The translations under genes and the position numbers were made by a program. A stretch of 20,400 bases of DNA from Nitrospinota bacterium (GTDB lineage Bacteria; Nitrospinota; Nitrospinia; JACRGO01). How positions within the stretch are numbered: position 1 is the stretch's first letter; each line of letters begins with the position of its first letter. Under the pieces are notes generated by a model. That model did not search any database. It was not told where the DNA came from and worked only from the letters and a program-made list of their open reading frames with translations. Shown piece by piece: positions 9,369 to 16,327 of this stretch. The stretch is taken from the NCBI GenBank assembly GCA_016212295.1, contig JACRGO010000121.1, positions 1-20,400 of the forward strand, in the 5' to 3' direction.

Positions 9369-10682
9369 ATGAGAACGGAACTGGAATCCGCTGTGGCGGG
9401 AGAAATCACGCAGTCCATGAAAAAAATCGCTGAAATGGAAAATGTCCCTCACGAATATGTCCGGGACAAGATGGCCCAGGGGCAGATAATCATCGCCCAG
9501 GGGAGATTCAATGGAAAAAAAATCGTCGGGATCGGCAAGGGGCTGCGCACCAAGATCAACGCCTCCATCGGGACCTCAAGCGACGTCATGGACCTTGAGA
9601 TGGAAAAGAGAAAGGCCCTGGCCGCTGAAAGGGCCGGAGCTGACACCTTGATGGAGCTGTCCGTTGCCGGAGACCTGGACGCCATCAGGAACGGGGTCCT
9701 GTCCGTTACGTCCCTGCCGGTCGGCAATGTCCCCCTGTACCAGGCTTTTTGCGAGGCGGCAAAAAAACATGGAGCGCCTTATAAGCTGGAAGAGGAGATG
9801 CTTTTTGATCTCATTGAAAAACAATGCGCGGACGGCATAGGCTTCATGGCGGTCCATTGCGGGATCAACCTGTTCACCATAGAGCGGATGAAGAAGCAGG
9901 GGTACCGCTACGGCGGACTCTGCTCCAAGGGCGGCACGCTGATGGTGGAGTGGATGATCGTAAACGGCAAGGAAAATCCCCTTTACGAAAAATTCGACAG
10001 GGTCTGCTCCATCCTGAAAAAATACGACACGGTCCTGAGCCTTGGAAACGGAATCCGCGCCGGGGCCATACACGATTCCCTGGACCGCGCCCAGATGGCG
10101 GAACTCATCCTCAATTGCGAACTGGCGGAGATAGGACGCGGCATGGGATGCCAGATGATGGTGGAAGGGCCGGGCCATGTCCCACTCAATGAAATCGAGG
10201 CCAATATCATGCTGCAAAAAAAGATGTCCAATGACGCGCCCTACTATATGTTAGGCCCCCTTCCCACTGACATCGGCGCCGGAATGGACCACATAACGGC
10301 GGCCATCGGCGCGGCCCATTCCTCCATGCACGGGGCGGACCTGATATGCTACATCACACCCGCTGAGCACCTGGCCCTCCCCAATGAAGAAGAGGTGGTG
10401 ACAGGGGTCAAGGCCGCGAGGCTTGCCGCGCATATCGGCGACGTGGTGAAGCTCAAGGGAAAGGCGGACTCGGTGGACAAGCAGGTAAGCAAGGACAGGC
10501 GGGATTTCCGCTGGGATTCGCAATACAAAAACCTTCTCTTCCCGGAAGACGCCCGGAAGATCCGGGAATCGCGGACAACAGCCGCAAGGAAAAGCTGCTC
10601 CATGTGCGGCGATTTCTGCGCCCTTGAGAGCGCTGAGAGGGTCCTCAACCGGTACCTCACGGGCGATAAACTGAATGCTTGA
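9369..10682 (+). CDS. ThiC-family radical-SAM enzyme; candidate 5-hydroxybenzimidazole synthase (BzaF) rather than ThiC
   Basis: The 437-aa protein belongs to the ThiC family, whose members rearrange aminoimidazole ribotide by radical SAM chemistry. AAGGAG lies 6 bases before the ATG. The C-terminal [4Fe-4S]-binding cysteines are C410-xx-C413-xxx-C417 (CSMCGDFC). EGPGHVP (266-272) and CYITPAEHL (327-335) are family core. Several positions depart from the canonical thiamin enzyme as I know it: GLCSKGG instead of GIVSRGG (183-189), SLGNGIRAG instead of SLGDGLRPG (224-232), NCELAEIG instead of LGELxxxA (249-256), and MELSVAGD instead of MDLSTGGD (95-102). These, and the 8-bp overlap with cobD, fit the anaerobic B12 lower-ligand enzyme BzaF. 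Generic annotation would call it thiC (phosphomethylpyrimidine synthase). Family membership is certain; the paralogue assignment is inference. Confidence 0.9.
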   Translation: MRTELESAVAGEITQSMKKIAEMENVPHEYVRDKMAQGQIIIAQGRFNGKKIVGIGKGLRTKINASIGTSSDVMDLEMEKRKALAAERAGADTLMELSVAGDLDAIRNGVLSVTSLPVGNVPLYQAFCEAAKKHGAPYKLEEEMLFDLIEKQCADGIGFMAVHCGINLFTIERMKKQGYRYGGLCSKGGTLMVEWMIVNGKENPLYEKFDRVCSILKKYDTVLSLGNGIRAGAIHDSLDRAQMAELILNCELAEIGRGMGCQMMVEGPGHVPLNEIEANIMLQKKMSNDAPYYMLGPLPTDIGAGMDHITAAIGAAHSSMHGADLICYITPAEHLALPNEEEVVTGVKAARLAAHIGDVVKLKGKADSVDKQVSKDRRDFRWDSQYKNLLFPEDARKIRESRTTAARKSCSMCGDFCALESAERVLNRYLTGDKLNA

Positions 10683-11772
10683 GGGCCACGGCGGAAACAT
10701 ACACGAGGCCGCCAGGATCGCGGGATGCCTCCCTTCCGGGATTATCGACCTGAGCAGCAATATCAGCCCCTTCCCTCCGTCCCGAATAATCATGGACCGG
10801 TTGAAGGAAGGGCTGAGGGAAATCAGCGCCCTCCCGGAAGTGGCTTCCCAAAGCCTGGCCGGACTGGTTGCAAGGAGGCACAATCTATCCGAAGGCCAGG
10901 TCCTGATCGGGAACGGGACCACTGAGCTCATCTTTTCCCTGCCTCGTTCTCCCGGTTCCCGCTCCGCGTTGATTTGCGCCCCGACCTATTCTGACTACGC
11001 CGACTCCTGCCGCCTCTCATCCGTGGAGACGCGGTTTCTGTTCTGCCGCAAGGAAGAAAATTTCGAGTTTGATTTGAGGCGGCTCAGGACGGAAGCAGGT
11101 AAAGCCGATCTCGTTTTTTTGTGTAATCCGAATAATCCCACCGGAGCGCTTGTTGGCGGAGAAAGCTTAAGGGGCCTGATCCGTCTCCTTCCATCCACCA
11201 CGTTCATAATCGATGAATCCTATCTGCCCTTCGTGGAAGGCGGCGACGCGGATTCCATGCTGAAGGGCGACATCCCTGACAATCTTATCGTCCTGCGCTC
11301 CTTTTCAAAAATTCATGCGATTCCAGGACTGCGGCTCGGCTGGCTGGCCTCCTCTGAAAGGACAGTGGAAACCTTACGGAGCAGGATGCTGCCCTGGAGC
11401 GTGAACCGGCTGGCCCAAATAGCGGGAGAGGCTATTTTGGAATCAGCGCAAGGCGGAAATTTGGAGGAAGATACGGCCCGTTACATGGCGGTGGAGAGGA
11501 CGGAATTTCTGGCCCGCCTTGCCCCTTTAATGCATGGCGCCGGCGCGGCGAATCCCCTGGCCGTTTACCCTGGTAAAGCCAATTTTCTTCTATTTGAGTT
11601 GAAGGGGACCATCGACGCTCCCGTGTTCTTCAACCTCATGTTGAAGAGGAGGATACTGGTCCGCGACTGTTCCAACTTCAGGGGGCTTGGCTCGCGCTTT
11701 TTCAGGATTTCACTTAAGACAAGGGAGATGAACAGTCTTTGTATAGATGCTATGTTGGAGATTTTGGGTTAG
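10675..11772 (+). CDS. cobD: Threonine-phosphate decarboxylase (PLP aminotransferase fold)
   Basis: The 365-aa PLP enzyme makes (R)-1-aminopropan-2-yl phosphate from L-threonine O-3-phosphate, the linker of the cobamide nucleotide loop. The N-terminal EGHGGNIHEAAR and IDLSSNISPF (24-33) are typical of CobD and separate it from HisC. PLP-binding features are GNGTTELI (79-86), NPNNPTG (151-157), IIDESY (178-183) and the Schiff-base lysine K212 in SFSKIHAIPGLRLGW. A C-terminal arginine FRISLK is expected to hold the substrate carboxylate. The ATG lies 8 bp inside the upstream gene, so translation is coupled. HisC remains the less likely alternative. Confidence 0.88.
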   Translation: MLEGHGGNIHEAARIAGCLPSGIIDLSSNISPFPPSRIIMDRLKEGLREISALPEVASQSLAGLVARRHNLSEGQVLIGNGTTELIFSLPRSPGSRSALICAPTYSDYADSCRLSSVETRFLFCRKEENFEFDLRRLRTEAGKADLVFLCNPNNPTGALVGGESLRGLIRLLPSTTFIIDESYLPFVEGGDADSMLKGDIPDNLIVLRSFSKIHAIPGLRLGWLASSERTVETLRSRMLPWSVNRLAQIAGEAILESAQGGNLEEDTARYMAVERTEFLARLAPLMHGAGAANPLAVYPGKANFLLFELKGTIDAPVFFNLMLKRRILVRDCSNFRGLGSRFFRISLKTREMNSLCIDAMLEILG

Positions 11773-11806: not shown

Positions 11807-11875
11807 ACCGCGGAGGCGCGGAGAAAAGCTCTTTAATTTAAATATATTTTCTCCGCGTCTCAGCGTCTCCGCGGT
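11807..11875. terminator. Palindrome between convergent cobD and aclA (likely bidirectional terminator)
   Basis: ACCGCGGAG (11807-11815) pairs perfectly with CTCCGCGGT (11867-11875). Inner GCGCGGAGAAAA pairs with TTTTCTCCGCGT (11847-11858), leaving a small CTCAGCG bulge. T/A runs flank both sides (TTTTTTTT before, ATATTTTTAATTTTT after), so it can terminate from both directions. It shares its word with the element at 14693-14796. Confidence 0.7.
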
Positions 11876-11939: not shown

Positions 11940-14651
11940 TCACCCCACAAATGAAACCTGGCTTGCCGGCGTGCGGGTGTCCATATTGCGGCCGCGATTC
12001 AGGTGGTCGTCGATCTCCGCCGCGCAGCCGATCATCCTTCCATAAAGGAAGGTTGTGAAGGCAGCGGTTTCCACTTCCTGGCCGGAGATGGCTTTTTCCG
12101 CCAACGCCTTCCAGAAAATCTTAAGCAGTATGACTGCTATGACCGCGTCCACGTTCACGCAGTAGACGTTCTTGGTGACCTTGGATTCAAACAGCGACCG
12201 CACAAGGTTGTGGTAGAAATCGAGGAAGATGTTGTAGCTCCCCCTTTCCTCCAGCAGGCGGCTTACGAATTGCTCCCTGGGGTCCACGTTCACCTCTTTT
12301 CCCTTGAAAACCGGATGGTTCACGCAAGGGATCTTGGCGTAGTCGATGTTGCCCGCCTCTTTTTCGCTCTTTTTGTAGCCTGAGTACCACTTGGAATACT
12401 TGTCCGCTATGGCCCTAAGGTTGATGCCGTGCTTCCGGTCGCCCGGGTCCTGGAGCTTCGAGTCCTTGAACTGGTCGATCAGGAAGGCGATGGCCTCATA
12501 GCCGTTCCCGCCGTGGGCGAACCCTGTGTGGGTGAGGAAGCCGATGACGCATTTATTGATCTGCACGCGTTCCGGCTGCTCCGGTCCGTCGGCGCTCACC
12601 GCCCCCTTGCTTCCCTGCGCTGAAATGGTGCCTGGTCCGTTCGAGATGATCAGCCCAAGGAGAAGGGTGAACTCGAAAAGCTCTATTGTGGACGGCCTGC
12701 GTCCCACCAGGGACAGGAACGCCACTTCCGTGAAGCTCCAATTTTCCAGTATCTCCGTGAACGGGACCCCGCATAAGGACTCCTTTTCGTGCTTTTTTGA
12801 AGGCACGGAGGCGCCGATAATGGCTGAAAAGATTTTTGAGTGCCACGGAAGATTGAGGAATGACGCCTTGGATATTTTGCGCTTCATCAAGGCGGGCCAT
12901 CCGAGAGTGGCCCAAATGGCGCCCAGCAGGGCGTCCGAGGAGGGCTTTCCATTCGTCGCTTCAATGACGAATTCCACGAAAATTGATTTCCCACCCATTT
13001 TCCCCAAGGTGGAAATAATCCGCGCGGCAAGATGGTTGCCGTTCCCGCTGGAGAGCGCCTTTTTCTGCTCAGCGGAAAGTTTTTTCAATATTTTGGAATA
13101 ATCGAAATGGTTTGTCGCGCTTTCGATTTTTTCGTATTGAAAGAGGTCAAGCAGCAAGGCTGAAGCGGCCTTTGCGTCACGGACCCTTGCCTTTCCAATG
13201 ATTCCAACCGCGGTTGACAACACGCTGTTGGGTGACGATTCCGCCTCGCGCGCGGCGTCAGCGGCCAGGACCACAGGGTCGCCCGGCATGTGGACAAAGG
13301 CGTTGAACGCCAGGTTCGCGAATTCCTTCTCCGTCTGGTCCGGAAAGGATTTAAGGAGCGCGAACACCAAATTTTCCTCCAGGGAGTACTTGGACGCGTC
13401 CAGGATGGAAAGGTTGTGGATCTTGGTTACCTGCGTGCCGGGGTCCATCATGGAGGCCCCGCTGGCGTCCTTCATGGTCTGGCGCGGGAATTGAGCCCCT
13501 ATCTGGCGGCTGATGATTTCGATCTGTTCGTTATAGGGGGCCACCGCCTCAACCGGCTTGACGTCCAATTCATCCGGCAGTACCAGGCCCTGGCTGTTTC
13601 CGAACCAGCACTTCAGGGAAAGGCTGCCCCTTGGCTCGAAATCCGGCTTGATCCCGTTAAGCGCCATTACCTTTGTGAGGGCCTCGGGTATGTGCGCGAT
13701 GTTAGTGACCACCGCGCCCTTCTTGGAGAATATGGGGTTCTCCGGGGTGTAAATGCCGTCCACTCCGAAATAATTCATGAACCATTGCTCCTTGGCCCTG
13801 GCGTCGTCCCCGGAGCCGGCGAGGGACCCGGCGTGGCCGCACGCCTTGGTGAGCTTCGCCTTCCAGCGTCCCACAACGCATACCACGGTGGGCTTGTTGA
13901 TCCGGAGGCCGCGCTCGTAATATCCGCCCGGCTCAACGTAGATAACCGATCCCTTGCTGCGGTTGTCGTTATCCACGGCATGGAGAAATTCCCTGGGCGC
14001 GAAGTGGATATAGACGTCCTTGCCGCTGGAAATGGATGTGGTGGTGCCCCATCCCTCCGAGGTGAGATACACCGCGATGGTGGTGGTGAAGTTTCCGGAG
14101 TTGGAAAAGAGGGCAATGCTCCCTTTTATCAGGGACTCCTCCGGTTTGCTTCCACCTAGGGCGCCGCCCATGCGGACCCTGCTCCAGGCGTCTGCCACCC
14201 CAAGGGCGTTCCCTCCGAATGCGTCAACGCCGTTCATCTGGCAGATCGCCCGGATGGTGCGCGCGTCGCTGACCGATATCTTTTCCGTGACTATGATGAT
14301 TTTTTTCAGGTCCTTGTTGGCGCGGACCATTTCCGCGACGCCGTCCTTGACGCCCGACGGCGGAAGGTAAACCACGCCGGTGCTGAAGGCGTGTCCTGCG
14401 GCCAGGCCCTCCTTCACTGAGTTATATACCGGGATCGGGCCTGATTTGGTTGGAAGGGATTGCCCGGTCCGCCCCGGGCTGGTGCCAAAGGCCACGTTGC
14501 CCCCTGAGAATTCATGGCTGGTCGGGGTCACGGAACGGCTCTCCGTGCCCAGGATGTTCAATACGCAAACTCTGTCCTCGCGTGTGGCCACCTCGGCCAG
14601 GGAATTAATTCCCACGTAATAAGGAAACCCTTCAGCGCCTTTTTTATGCAT
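11940..14651 (-). CDS. aclA: ATP-citrate lyase large subunit (citryl-CoA synthetase/lyase fusion, extended form)
   Basis: The 903-aa protein, with AclB, cleaves citrate with CoA and ATP to acetyl-CoA and oxaloacetate, the key reaction of the reductive TCA cycle. The N-terminal half (1-340) is a succinyl-CoA-synthetase-alpha-like CoA-binding and phosphohistidine domain; the phosphorylated residue should be His273 in ACGHAGSLAGSGDDARAKEQ. The C-terminal half is citrate-synthase-like. The usual ADHGP lyase signature reads IISNGPGTIS (Asn671 in place of His). TGFAHGGNGYEA (His713), NHPVFKGKEVNVDPRE (His779) and CVNVDAVIA (Asp835) are present. Typical bacterial AclA is about 600 aa; the extra length lies mainly between about 400 and 640. 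AGGAGA stands 9 bases before the ATG. The gene follows aclB after 173 bp. Confidence 0.88.
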   Translation of the reverse strand: MHKKGAEGFPYYVGINSLAEVATREDRVCVLNILGTESRSVTPTSHEFSGGNVAFGTSPGRTGQSLPTKSGPIPVYNSVKEGLAAGHAFSTGVVYLPPSGVKDGVAEMVRANKDLKKIIIVTEKISVSDARTIRAICQMNGVDAFGGNALGVADAWSRVRMGGALGGSKPEESLIKGSIALFSNSGNFTTTIAVYLTSEGWGTTTSISSGKDVYIHFAPREFLHAVDNDNRSKGSVIYVEPGGYYERGLRINKPTVVCVVGRWKAKLTKACGHAGSLAGSGDDARAKEQWFMNYFGVDGIYTPENPIFSKKGAVVTNIAHIPEALTKVMALNGIKPDFEPRGSLSLKCWFGNSQGLVLPDELDVKPVEAVAPYNEQIEIISRQIGAQFPRQTMKDASGASMMDPGTQVTKIHNLSILDASKYSLEENLVFALLKSFPDQTEKEFANLAFNAFVHMPGDPVVLAADAAREAESSPNSVLSTAVGIIGKARVRDAKAASALLLDLFQYEKIESATNHFDYSKILKKLSAEQKKALSSGNGNHLAARIISTLGKMGGKSIFVEFVIEATNGKPSSDALLGAIWATLGWPALMKRKISKASFLNLPWHSKIFSAIIGASVPSKKHEKESLCGVPFTEILENWSFTEVAFLSLVGRRPSTIELFEFTLLLGLIISNGPGTISAQGSKGAVSADGPEQPERVQINKCVIGFLTHTGFAHGGNGYEAIAFLIDQFKDSKLQDPGDRKHGINLRAIADKYSKWYSGYKKSEKEAGNIDYAKIPCVNHPVFKGKEVNVDPREQFVSRLLEERGSYNIFLDFYHNLVRSLFESKVTKNVYCVNVDAVIAVILLKIFWKALAEKAISGQEVETAAFTTFLYGRMIGCAAEIDDHLNRGRNMDTRTPASQVSFVG

Positions 14652-14692: not shown

Positions 14693-14796
14693 ACCGCGGA
14701 GACACAGAGGCGCGGAGATTTTTATAAAATGTTTTGGTTGTTGGGGCACGATGCCTCGCGCCCTTACCTTTCTCAGCGTCTTTGCGCCTCAGCGGT
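14693..14796. repeat. Palindrome between aclB and aclA
   Basis: The 26-base left arm (14693-14718, starting ACCGCGGAGACACAGAGG) and the right arm (14771-14796, ending GCGCCTCAGCGGT) are complementary at about 20 of 26 positions, with purine-for-purine differences. The centre holds a nested GGGGCACGATGCCTCGCGCCC-like hairpin. It interrupts an otherwise coupled two-gene operon and could attenuate aclA or stabilise the aclB message. Confidence 0.65.
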
Positions 14797-16099: not shown

Positions 16100-16146
16100 T
16101 GATTATTTCCTCCCTGTATATATTCAGTTTATATAAAAAGTAGTAA

Positions 16147-16220
16147 CCGTTCACGGTTTCAGGTTCCGGGTTCCGGATTTTATAAAACCTTGACCCTTGA
16201 ACCCTTGAACCCGTGAACGG
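16147..16220. repeat. Palindrome in the divergent aclB/DUF4912 promoter region
   Basis: CCGTTCACGG (16147-16156) and the following GGTTCCGGGTTCCGG pair with GACCCTTGAACCCTTGAACC (16191-16210) and CCGTGAACGG (16211-16220), around an AT-rich centre ATTTTATAAAA. GAACCC words recur on the right arm. The position between divergent genes argues against a simple terminator role. Confidence 0.65.
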
Positions 16221-16327
16221 CTACATAAAGTACTATATAATAACAAATAATTTTTTTTATTCAAAGGCCGGTTTAATTTTTTTCGCCTTGCCTGGCGGGA
16301 TGTGAACTTCCTGCCGGAATTTTGGCA

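Follow-up and report, generated by a model that had tools for sequence, protein, structure and literature searches.

A type II ATP-citrate lyase of Nitrospinota with a predicted tandem pair of lyase domains, one of them degenerate

Citrate-cleaving enzymes described so far and the type II locus

Canonical (type I) ATP-citrate lyase (ACL), known from Chlorobium, Methanothrix and human, combines an acyl-CoA synthetase (ASH) part with a citryl-CoA lyase / citrate synthase homology (CSH) domain, and has a tetrameric CSH core (PMC10115795). The cleavage site of human ACLY is disputed and was placed either in CSH, or in ASH with CSH being only allosteric (PMC10115795). ATP-citrate lyase is a human drug target. 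In Hydrogenobacter and Aquifex, a two-subunit citryl-CoA synthetase and a separate citryl-CoA lyase are found instead.

Type II ACLs, such as those of Magnetococcus MC-1, tubeworm endosymbionts and Thioflavicoccus, are two-gene enzymes of a class that has so far been postulated from genomes, and no report of a purified type II ACL was found in the literature searched. Citrate cleavage activity was reported for Magnetococcus MC-1, in which type II ACL genes are the only citrate-cleaving ones (PMC6783814). By phylogeny, type II clusters near CCS-CCL (PMC5459899), and two primers for type II aclA, acl2F1 and acl2R1, have been published (PMC3522073). In Nitrospinae, rTCA genes including ACL were described (PMC8026999), and Lucker et al. 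2013 reported two genes of N. gracilis with very low similarity to ACL that were assumed to be functional (PMC3578206). The analysis of such a gene pair provides the rTCA-capable Nitrospinota, which are among the main marine nitrite oxidisers, with a defined predicted citrate-cleaving enzyme.

The window, a stretch of 20,400 nucleotides from a Nitrospinota bacterium (contig JACRGO010000121.1), carries aclB and, 173 bp downstream and preceded by a good ribosome site (AGGAG), aclA (Table 1). The encoded subunits together have the ATP-grasp, citrate-binding, CoA-binding, phospho-His and CSH domains of an ATP-citrate lyase. Both published type II primers encode peptides of AclA: VAKEEWF of acl2F1 corresponds to residues 286-291 (AKEQWF; 6/22 mismatches at the primer site) and NGFEAIA of acl2R1 to residues 716-722 (NGYEAIA; 1/21 mismatches), and both peptides are missing from canonical AclA. 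AclA can therefore be assigned by its sequence to type II, with the primers as the sole means of comparison to other type II enzymes. In the tree, the aclB-aclA pair is distant from type I, and the whole clade is separated from canonical ACL by a very long branch. An earlier note on this DNA had suggested a link to type II ACLs of nitrite oxidisers; the primer matches agree with type II, but type II is not mainly an enzyme of nitrite oxidisers.

Table 1. Positions of the features of aclA and aclB in the window, and of ACL genes of family f6 on their own loci
Feature	Position	Strand	Basis
aclA, type II ATP-citrate lyase large subunit, 903 aa, coordinates with stop codon	11940..14651	-	ORF and translation
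aclB, small subunit, ATP-grasp and citrate-binding domain, 424 aa	14825..16099	-	Pfam
ASH alpha part, AclA residues 1-344, CoA-binding and phospho-His domain	13620..14651	-	Pfam
His273, phospho-histidine, in GHAG	13833..13835	-	invariant 55/55
Predicted degenerate second citryl-CoA lyase-fold domain (pseudo-CSH), residues 391-618	12798..13481	-	hhalign, AF2, 6hxp match
Predicted catalytic citryl-CoA lyase / CSH domain, residues 619-903	11943..12797	-	NCBIfam profile, 6hxp alignment
S670-N671-G672-P673, at the canonical ACL DHGP site	12633..12644	-	N671, G672, P673 invariant 55/55
A712-H713-G-G-N-G, AHGG motif of citrate synthase / citryl-CoA lyase	12501..12518	-	alignments, invariance
His779, counterpart of GIGHR / GFGHR His	12315..12317	-	profile alignment, invariance
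D790-P791-R792, DPR motif with presumed citrate-binding Arg	12276..12284	-	invariant 55/55
Asp835, counterpart of human ACLY Asp1026	12147..12149	-	profile alignment, invariance
Arg872, counterpart of human ACLY Arg1065	12036..12038	-	invariant 55/55; equivalence by motif LxRxxG
f6 ACL with DNGP	L077, 113-3184
f6 ACL with DNGP	L078, 870-3941
f6 ACL with DNGP	L079, 1013-4084
f6 ACL with DNGP, incomplete or split	L080, 1772-3556
f6 ACL with DNGP, incomplete or split	L081, 2006-3607

Two lyase-fold domains in one chain

The unusual length of AclA had been pointed out in the earlier note, where the nature of the added sequence was not recognised, and the open reading frame of 903 aa was confirmed. 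Canonical AclA of the same class has 610-612 aa, which leaves about 270-290 extra residues in the window's AclA. A frameshift, a fusion artefact or a misassembly was ruled out as the source of this length by 43 Nitrospinota and 12 plasmid genes, in which length and domain order are identical.

Profile comparison and structure prediction identify the extra sequence as a putative second, degenerate citryl-CoA lyase domain, so that the order in AclA would be ASH, a dead lyase copy and a live lyase copy. In hhalign, the profile of residues 400-618 aligned to the C-terminal domain with a score of 78.2 (E 5.4e-11), as compared with at most 20.7 for 40 column-shuffled controls, 15.2 for the reversed profile and 15.3 for the unrelated ASH domain. 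When the middle domain was compared directly in hhalign to citrate synthase or canonical CSH, no match was obtained, and the case for homology thus goes via AclA's own C-terminal copy and via structure. Predicted alone (AF2, 43 sequences), the middle domain reached a pLDDT of 88.6 and a pTM of 0.85, and its best solved match was the Hydrogenobacter citryl-CoA lyase 6hxp (Z 18.5 (VIA), rmsd 3.7, 205 residues aligned; Foldseek E 2.0e-4), followed by the CSH modules of Chlorobium, Methanothrix and human ACL (Z 15-18). The model of full-length AclA was of moderate confidence (pLDDT 68.7, active-site loops below 50) and matched citrate synthase / 2-methylcitrate synthase over residues 394-891 (Z 19.6). 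These enzymes have the His-His-Asp triad in common with AclA, but are devoid of synthetase domains and carry the His of ADHE/DHG where AclA has Asn671.

Residues ~391-618 vary fast, with a single invariant residue in the range 501-650 and an identity to a distant relative of 25%, as compared with 49% for the C-terminal domain. The catalytic positions are lost or variable in the middle domain: the position of His713 is mostly Met, Arg or Thr in what is a weak pairing, no residue lies opposite His779, Arg792 is mostly replaced by Cys, and Arg872 by Thr. The Asp is kept in 51/55 relatives and a structural Trp in 55/55. The literature searched contained no description of a tandem lyase domain and no study of the active site or the domains of type II.

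The C-terminal domain is covered by the NCBIfam citryl-CoA lyase profile (AclA 617-895, E 2.1e-8). Its conservation was assessed in 55 full-length relatives (43 from Nitrospinota and 12 Pseudomonadota plasmid sequences) with 46-72% identity. Invariant throughout were Asn671, Gly672, Pro673, His713, His779, Asp790-Pro-Arg792, Asp835, Arg872 and Arg893, and also Glu123 and His273 of the synthetase half; the motif starting at position 670 reads SNGP or TNGP, and HGG with its His is found in every relative. As they are invariant in this set, the motif changes are due neither to sequencing error nor to chance. A profile alignment with the CSH of canonical ACLs of the same class, which taken alone is weak (probability 42%, E 2.7e-4), places SNGP opposite DHGP, His713 opposite the Phe of RFGG, His779 opposite the His of GIGHR and Asp835 opposite the Asp of NVD. 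In the alignment with 6hxp, Asn671 lies opposite the DHG His and His713 opposite the AHGG His. Arg792 of the DPR motif we take to be the citrate-binding Arg, an equivalence that comes from known citrate synthase chemistry. Compared with canonical type I ACL, AclA thus shares the logic of ASH and CSH, the phospho-His and the equivalents of Asp1026, His975 and Arg1065, but has SNGP/TNGP, HGG and two CSH-fold domains where type I has DHGP and RFGG in a single CSH domain.

Most of what the earlier note had read from the active site was retained, namely SNGP at residues 670-673 in place of DHGP, AHGG with His713 opposite FGG, and the presence of His779, Asp835 and phospho-His273. The note gave no strand for the gene, which is on the minus strand. 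Its rendering of the Chlorobium motif as FGGALD was incorrect, as Chlorobium reads FGGAV, and AHGG, which it had taken as a trait resembling citrate synthase, also occurs in the stand-alone citryl-CoA lyase of Hydrogenobacter, which carries DHG and AHGG. The proposal of a distinct active site was supported in part: the changes are real and family-wide, but AHGG is shared with the Hydrogenobacter lyase, and Asn at the DHGP His with other ACLs of the class, which read DNGP. AHGG was accordingly rejected as a novel lyase motif, being present already in 6hxp. AHGG is the ordinary state in citrate synthase and stand-alone lyase, and the FGG of canonical ACL is the exception that lost the His. Asn671 in place of His is the sole real departure of the active site.

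Asn671 is not unique either. Five ACLs of family f6 from the same class, otherwise canonical, combine DNGP with FGG; where complete, they are fused and have 1023 aa (Table 1). By sequence, the equivalent of His900 appears to have been lost a second time, independently, in this family. With Asn in both the f6 ACLs and type II, the replacement seems to be tolerated at the DHGP His site in two branches that are far apart. This agrees with the role of the equivalent His in citrate synthase, where it binds the oxaloacetate end without belonging to the catalytic triad.

Synthetase half and the site of citrate cleavage

Residues 1-344 of AclA match Pfam Succ_CoA_lig and CoA_binding, and AclB matches Citrate_bind (66.6 bits) and ATP-grasp_2. 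For both parts, the best solved relative is citryl-CoA synthetase: the small subunit 6hxq_A for AclA (97.9 bits; Chlorobium AclA 29.6) and the large subunit 6hxq_B for AclB (128.7 bits; ACLs at most 90.1). AclB and citryl-CoA synthetase have ANNT and GGNPP motifs in common where ACL has ANFT, whereas GGK(A/S)NNTD and FGGGAN of AclB are family-specific. Residues of the canonical citrate site are altered in AclB, with Phe347 and a Ser both replaced by Asn. On these comparisons, the synthetase half appears closer to citryl-CoA synthetase than to canonical ACL, in agreement with the reported placement of type II near CCS-CCL. The Hydrogenobacter/Aquifex system, with which AclA also shares AHGG, differs in that synthetase and lyase are separate, whereas here one AclAB pair carries both, the lyase domain is duplicated, and the His of DHG is replaced by Asn.

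The reading preferred here, to which we give a probability of about three in four, is that AclAB is a citryl-CoA synthetase-lyase fusion of the rTCA cycle in which one lyase domain is live and the other dead, and that cleavage takes place in the C-terminal domain. By homology, AclB and AclA 1-344 would work like citryl-CoA synthetase, with ATP phosphorylating His273, the phosphate activating citrate and CoA then yielding citryl-CoA. The C-terminal lyase domain would split citryl-CoA into acetyl-CoA and oxaloacetate, with Asp835 handling the acetyl-CoA proton, His713 holding the enol oxygen, His779 acting on the carbonyl of oxaloacetate, and the carboxylates being held by Arg792 and Arg872; Asn671 would bind where the usual His does. 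Two points make citryl-CoA formation in the ASH half and cleavage in the C-terminal domain the simplest interpretation: the synthetase half is of a type whose citryl-CoA is passed on to a stand-alone lyase, and under selection the complete triad has been retained by only one of the two lyase copies. Residues 391-618 may have been retained for structure, and we speculate that they complete a four-domain lyase core, a guess in keeping with the tetrameric core that CSH forms in canonical ACL. Extended to the whole class, this leads to a tentative view, which we hold at somewhat below even odds, that type II ACL arose by independent fusion of citryl-CoA synthetase with a tandem lyase pair. Owing to the dead copy, two AclA chains would suffice for the four-domain core that takes four chains in the canonical enzyme, with half the active sites, and cleavage would occur only in the live C-terminal copy bearing Asn for His.

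The invariant Glu123 of AclA, probably the counterpart of human ACLY Glu599, would also suit a lyase step in the ASH part, with the C-terminal domain only binding CoA and acetyl-CoA. Such an allosteric model was argued for human ACLY by one group from cryo-EM and mass spectrometry of the D1026A variant (PMC10115795). For the enzyme of the window it is unlikely: Phe347, a gate in that model, is Asn here, the closest solved synthetase pairs with a separate lyase, and the lyase triad is unfailingly kept in the C-terminal domain and lost in the adjacent middle copy. The presence of live and dead CSH copies in one chain, with the triad only in the live one, would rather constitute evolutionary evidence for CSH chemistry in this branch. 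As one enzyme carries both copies, type II ACL offers a natural test of where citrate is cut.

A single citrate synthase is found in the genome of the window (90.5% complete), along with two genes of the 2-oxoacid:ferredoxin oxidoreductase (POR) type. Since other bacteria are known to run citrate synthase in reverse and the DHGP His is gone, AclAB might act in vivo only as citryl-CoA synthetase, its product being cleaved by citrate synthase or an unseen lyase. The invariant catalytic triad and the citrate cleavage reported in Magnetococcus MC-1, with type II ACL only, make this very improbable. The earlier note had also considered a separate lyase elsewhere in the genome, but none was found there with the citryl-CoA lyase profile at E 0.1, and the matches listed for complete relatives included none either. 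Action on a different substrate, i.e., another tricarboxylate or a 2-hydroxy acid, with the enzyme being mistaken for ACL, could be read from the changed citrate pocket of AclB and from diverse plasmid neighbourhoods (tricarballylate genes among them, and oxidoreductases in Aminobacter), but is hardly probable given that the enzyme occurs class-wide in predicted rTCA autotrophs needing citrate cleavage, that canonical-type ACL takes over in genomes without type II, and that the pocket is citryl-CoA synthetase-like with the same ANNT motif.

Distribution, plasmid copies and neighbouring sequences

The named relatives, MAGs labelled Deltaproteobacteria and a Nitrospinaceae MAG, place the window in or near the Nitrospinota. 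Type II AclA was found in 60/77 genomes of the phylum, including all 31 with a completeness of at least 90% and a contamination of at most 5%. Family f6 genomes are without type II AclA and have the canonical-type ACL instead. In one genome (G004), a canonical split aclBA occurs alongside a long type II aclBA (L075, L083). AclA is apparently absent from G001, the only relative of the same genus that was examined, in which the aclB match ends part-way; this looks like an assembly gap, with the match probably ending at a contig end.

Outside the phylum, relatives covering at least 80% of the length were found on 19 plasmid records, and a search of viral contigs returned no AclA relative. Full-length plasmid copies, with 53-58% identity, come from Microvirga, Sinorhizobium, Paraburkholderia, Caballeronia, Aminobacter, Polymorphobacter and Gemmobacter, and have aclA directly after aclB. 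In the tree with midpoint rooting, they branch outside the Nitrospinota group. At most annotated plasmid loci (L099-L110), transport or use genes of the TctAB, TcuAB, 2-hydroxycarboxylate or DctA type lie within ~10 kb, and a thioesterase is found near aclBA at two plasmid loci. The Aminobacter copy is located among oxidoreductases and without such transport or use genes. It is possible that aclBA serves ATP-dependent citrate use outside autotrophy in these heterotrophic Pseudomonadota. As the same enzyme is present on plasmids of heterotrophic soil bacteria, aclA alone is no proof of autotrophy.

In the window, intergenic repeats of the type CGCGGAGACGCTGAGACGC were seen on both sides of aclA (11807-11875 and 14695-14713). 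The CGCGGAGACGCTGAGACGC-type pattern has 48 exact matches genome-wide, as compared with 33 for the backward control pattern, which amounts to some excess only. Just upstream of aclB, an inverted repeat (16143-16224) has 19-nt arms that are 89% complementary and 44 nt apart, and might be a regulatory site. Two further open reading frames, named by eye from the sequence, resemble thiC (phosphomethylpyrimidine synthase; 9369-10682) and hisC/cobD (histidinol-phosphate/threonine-phosphate aminotransferase; 10675-11772); they share 8 bases, and both converge on aclA.
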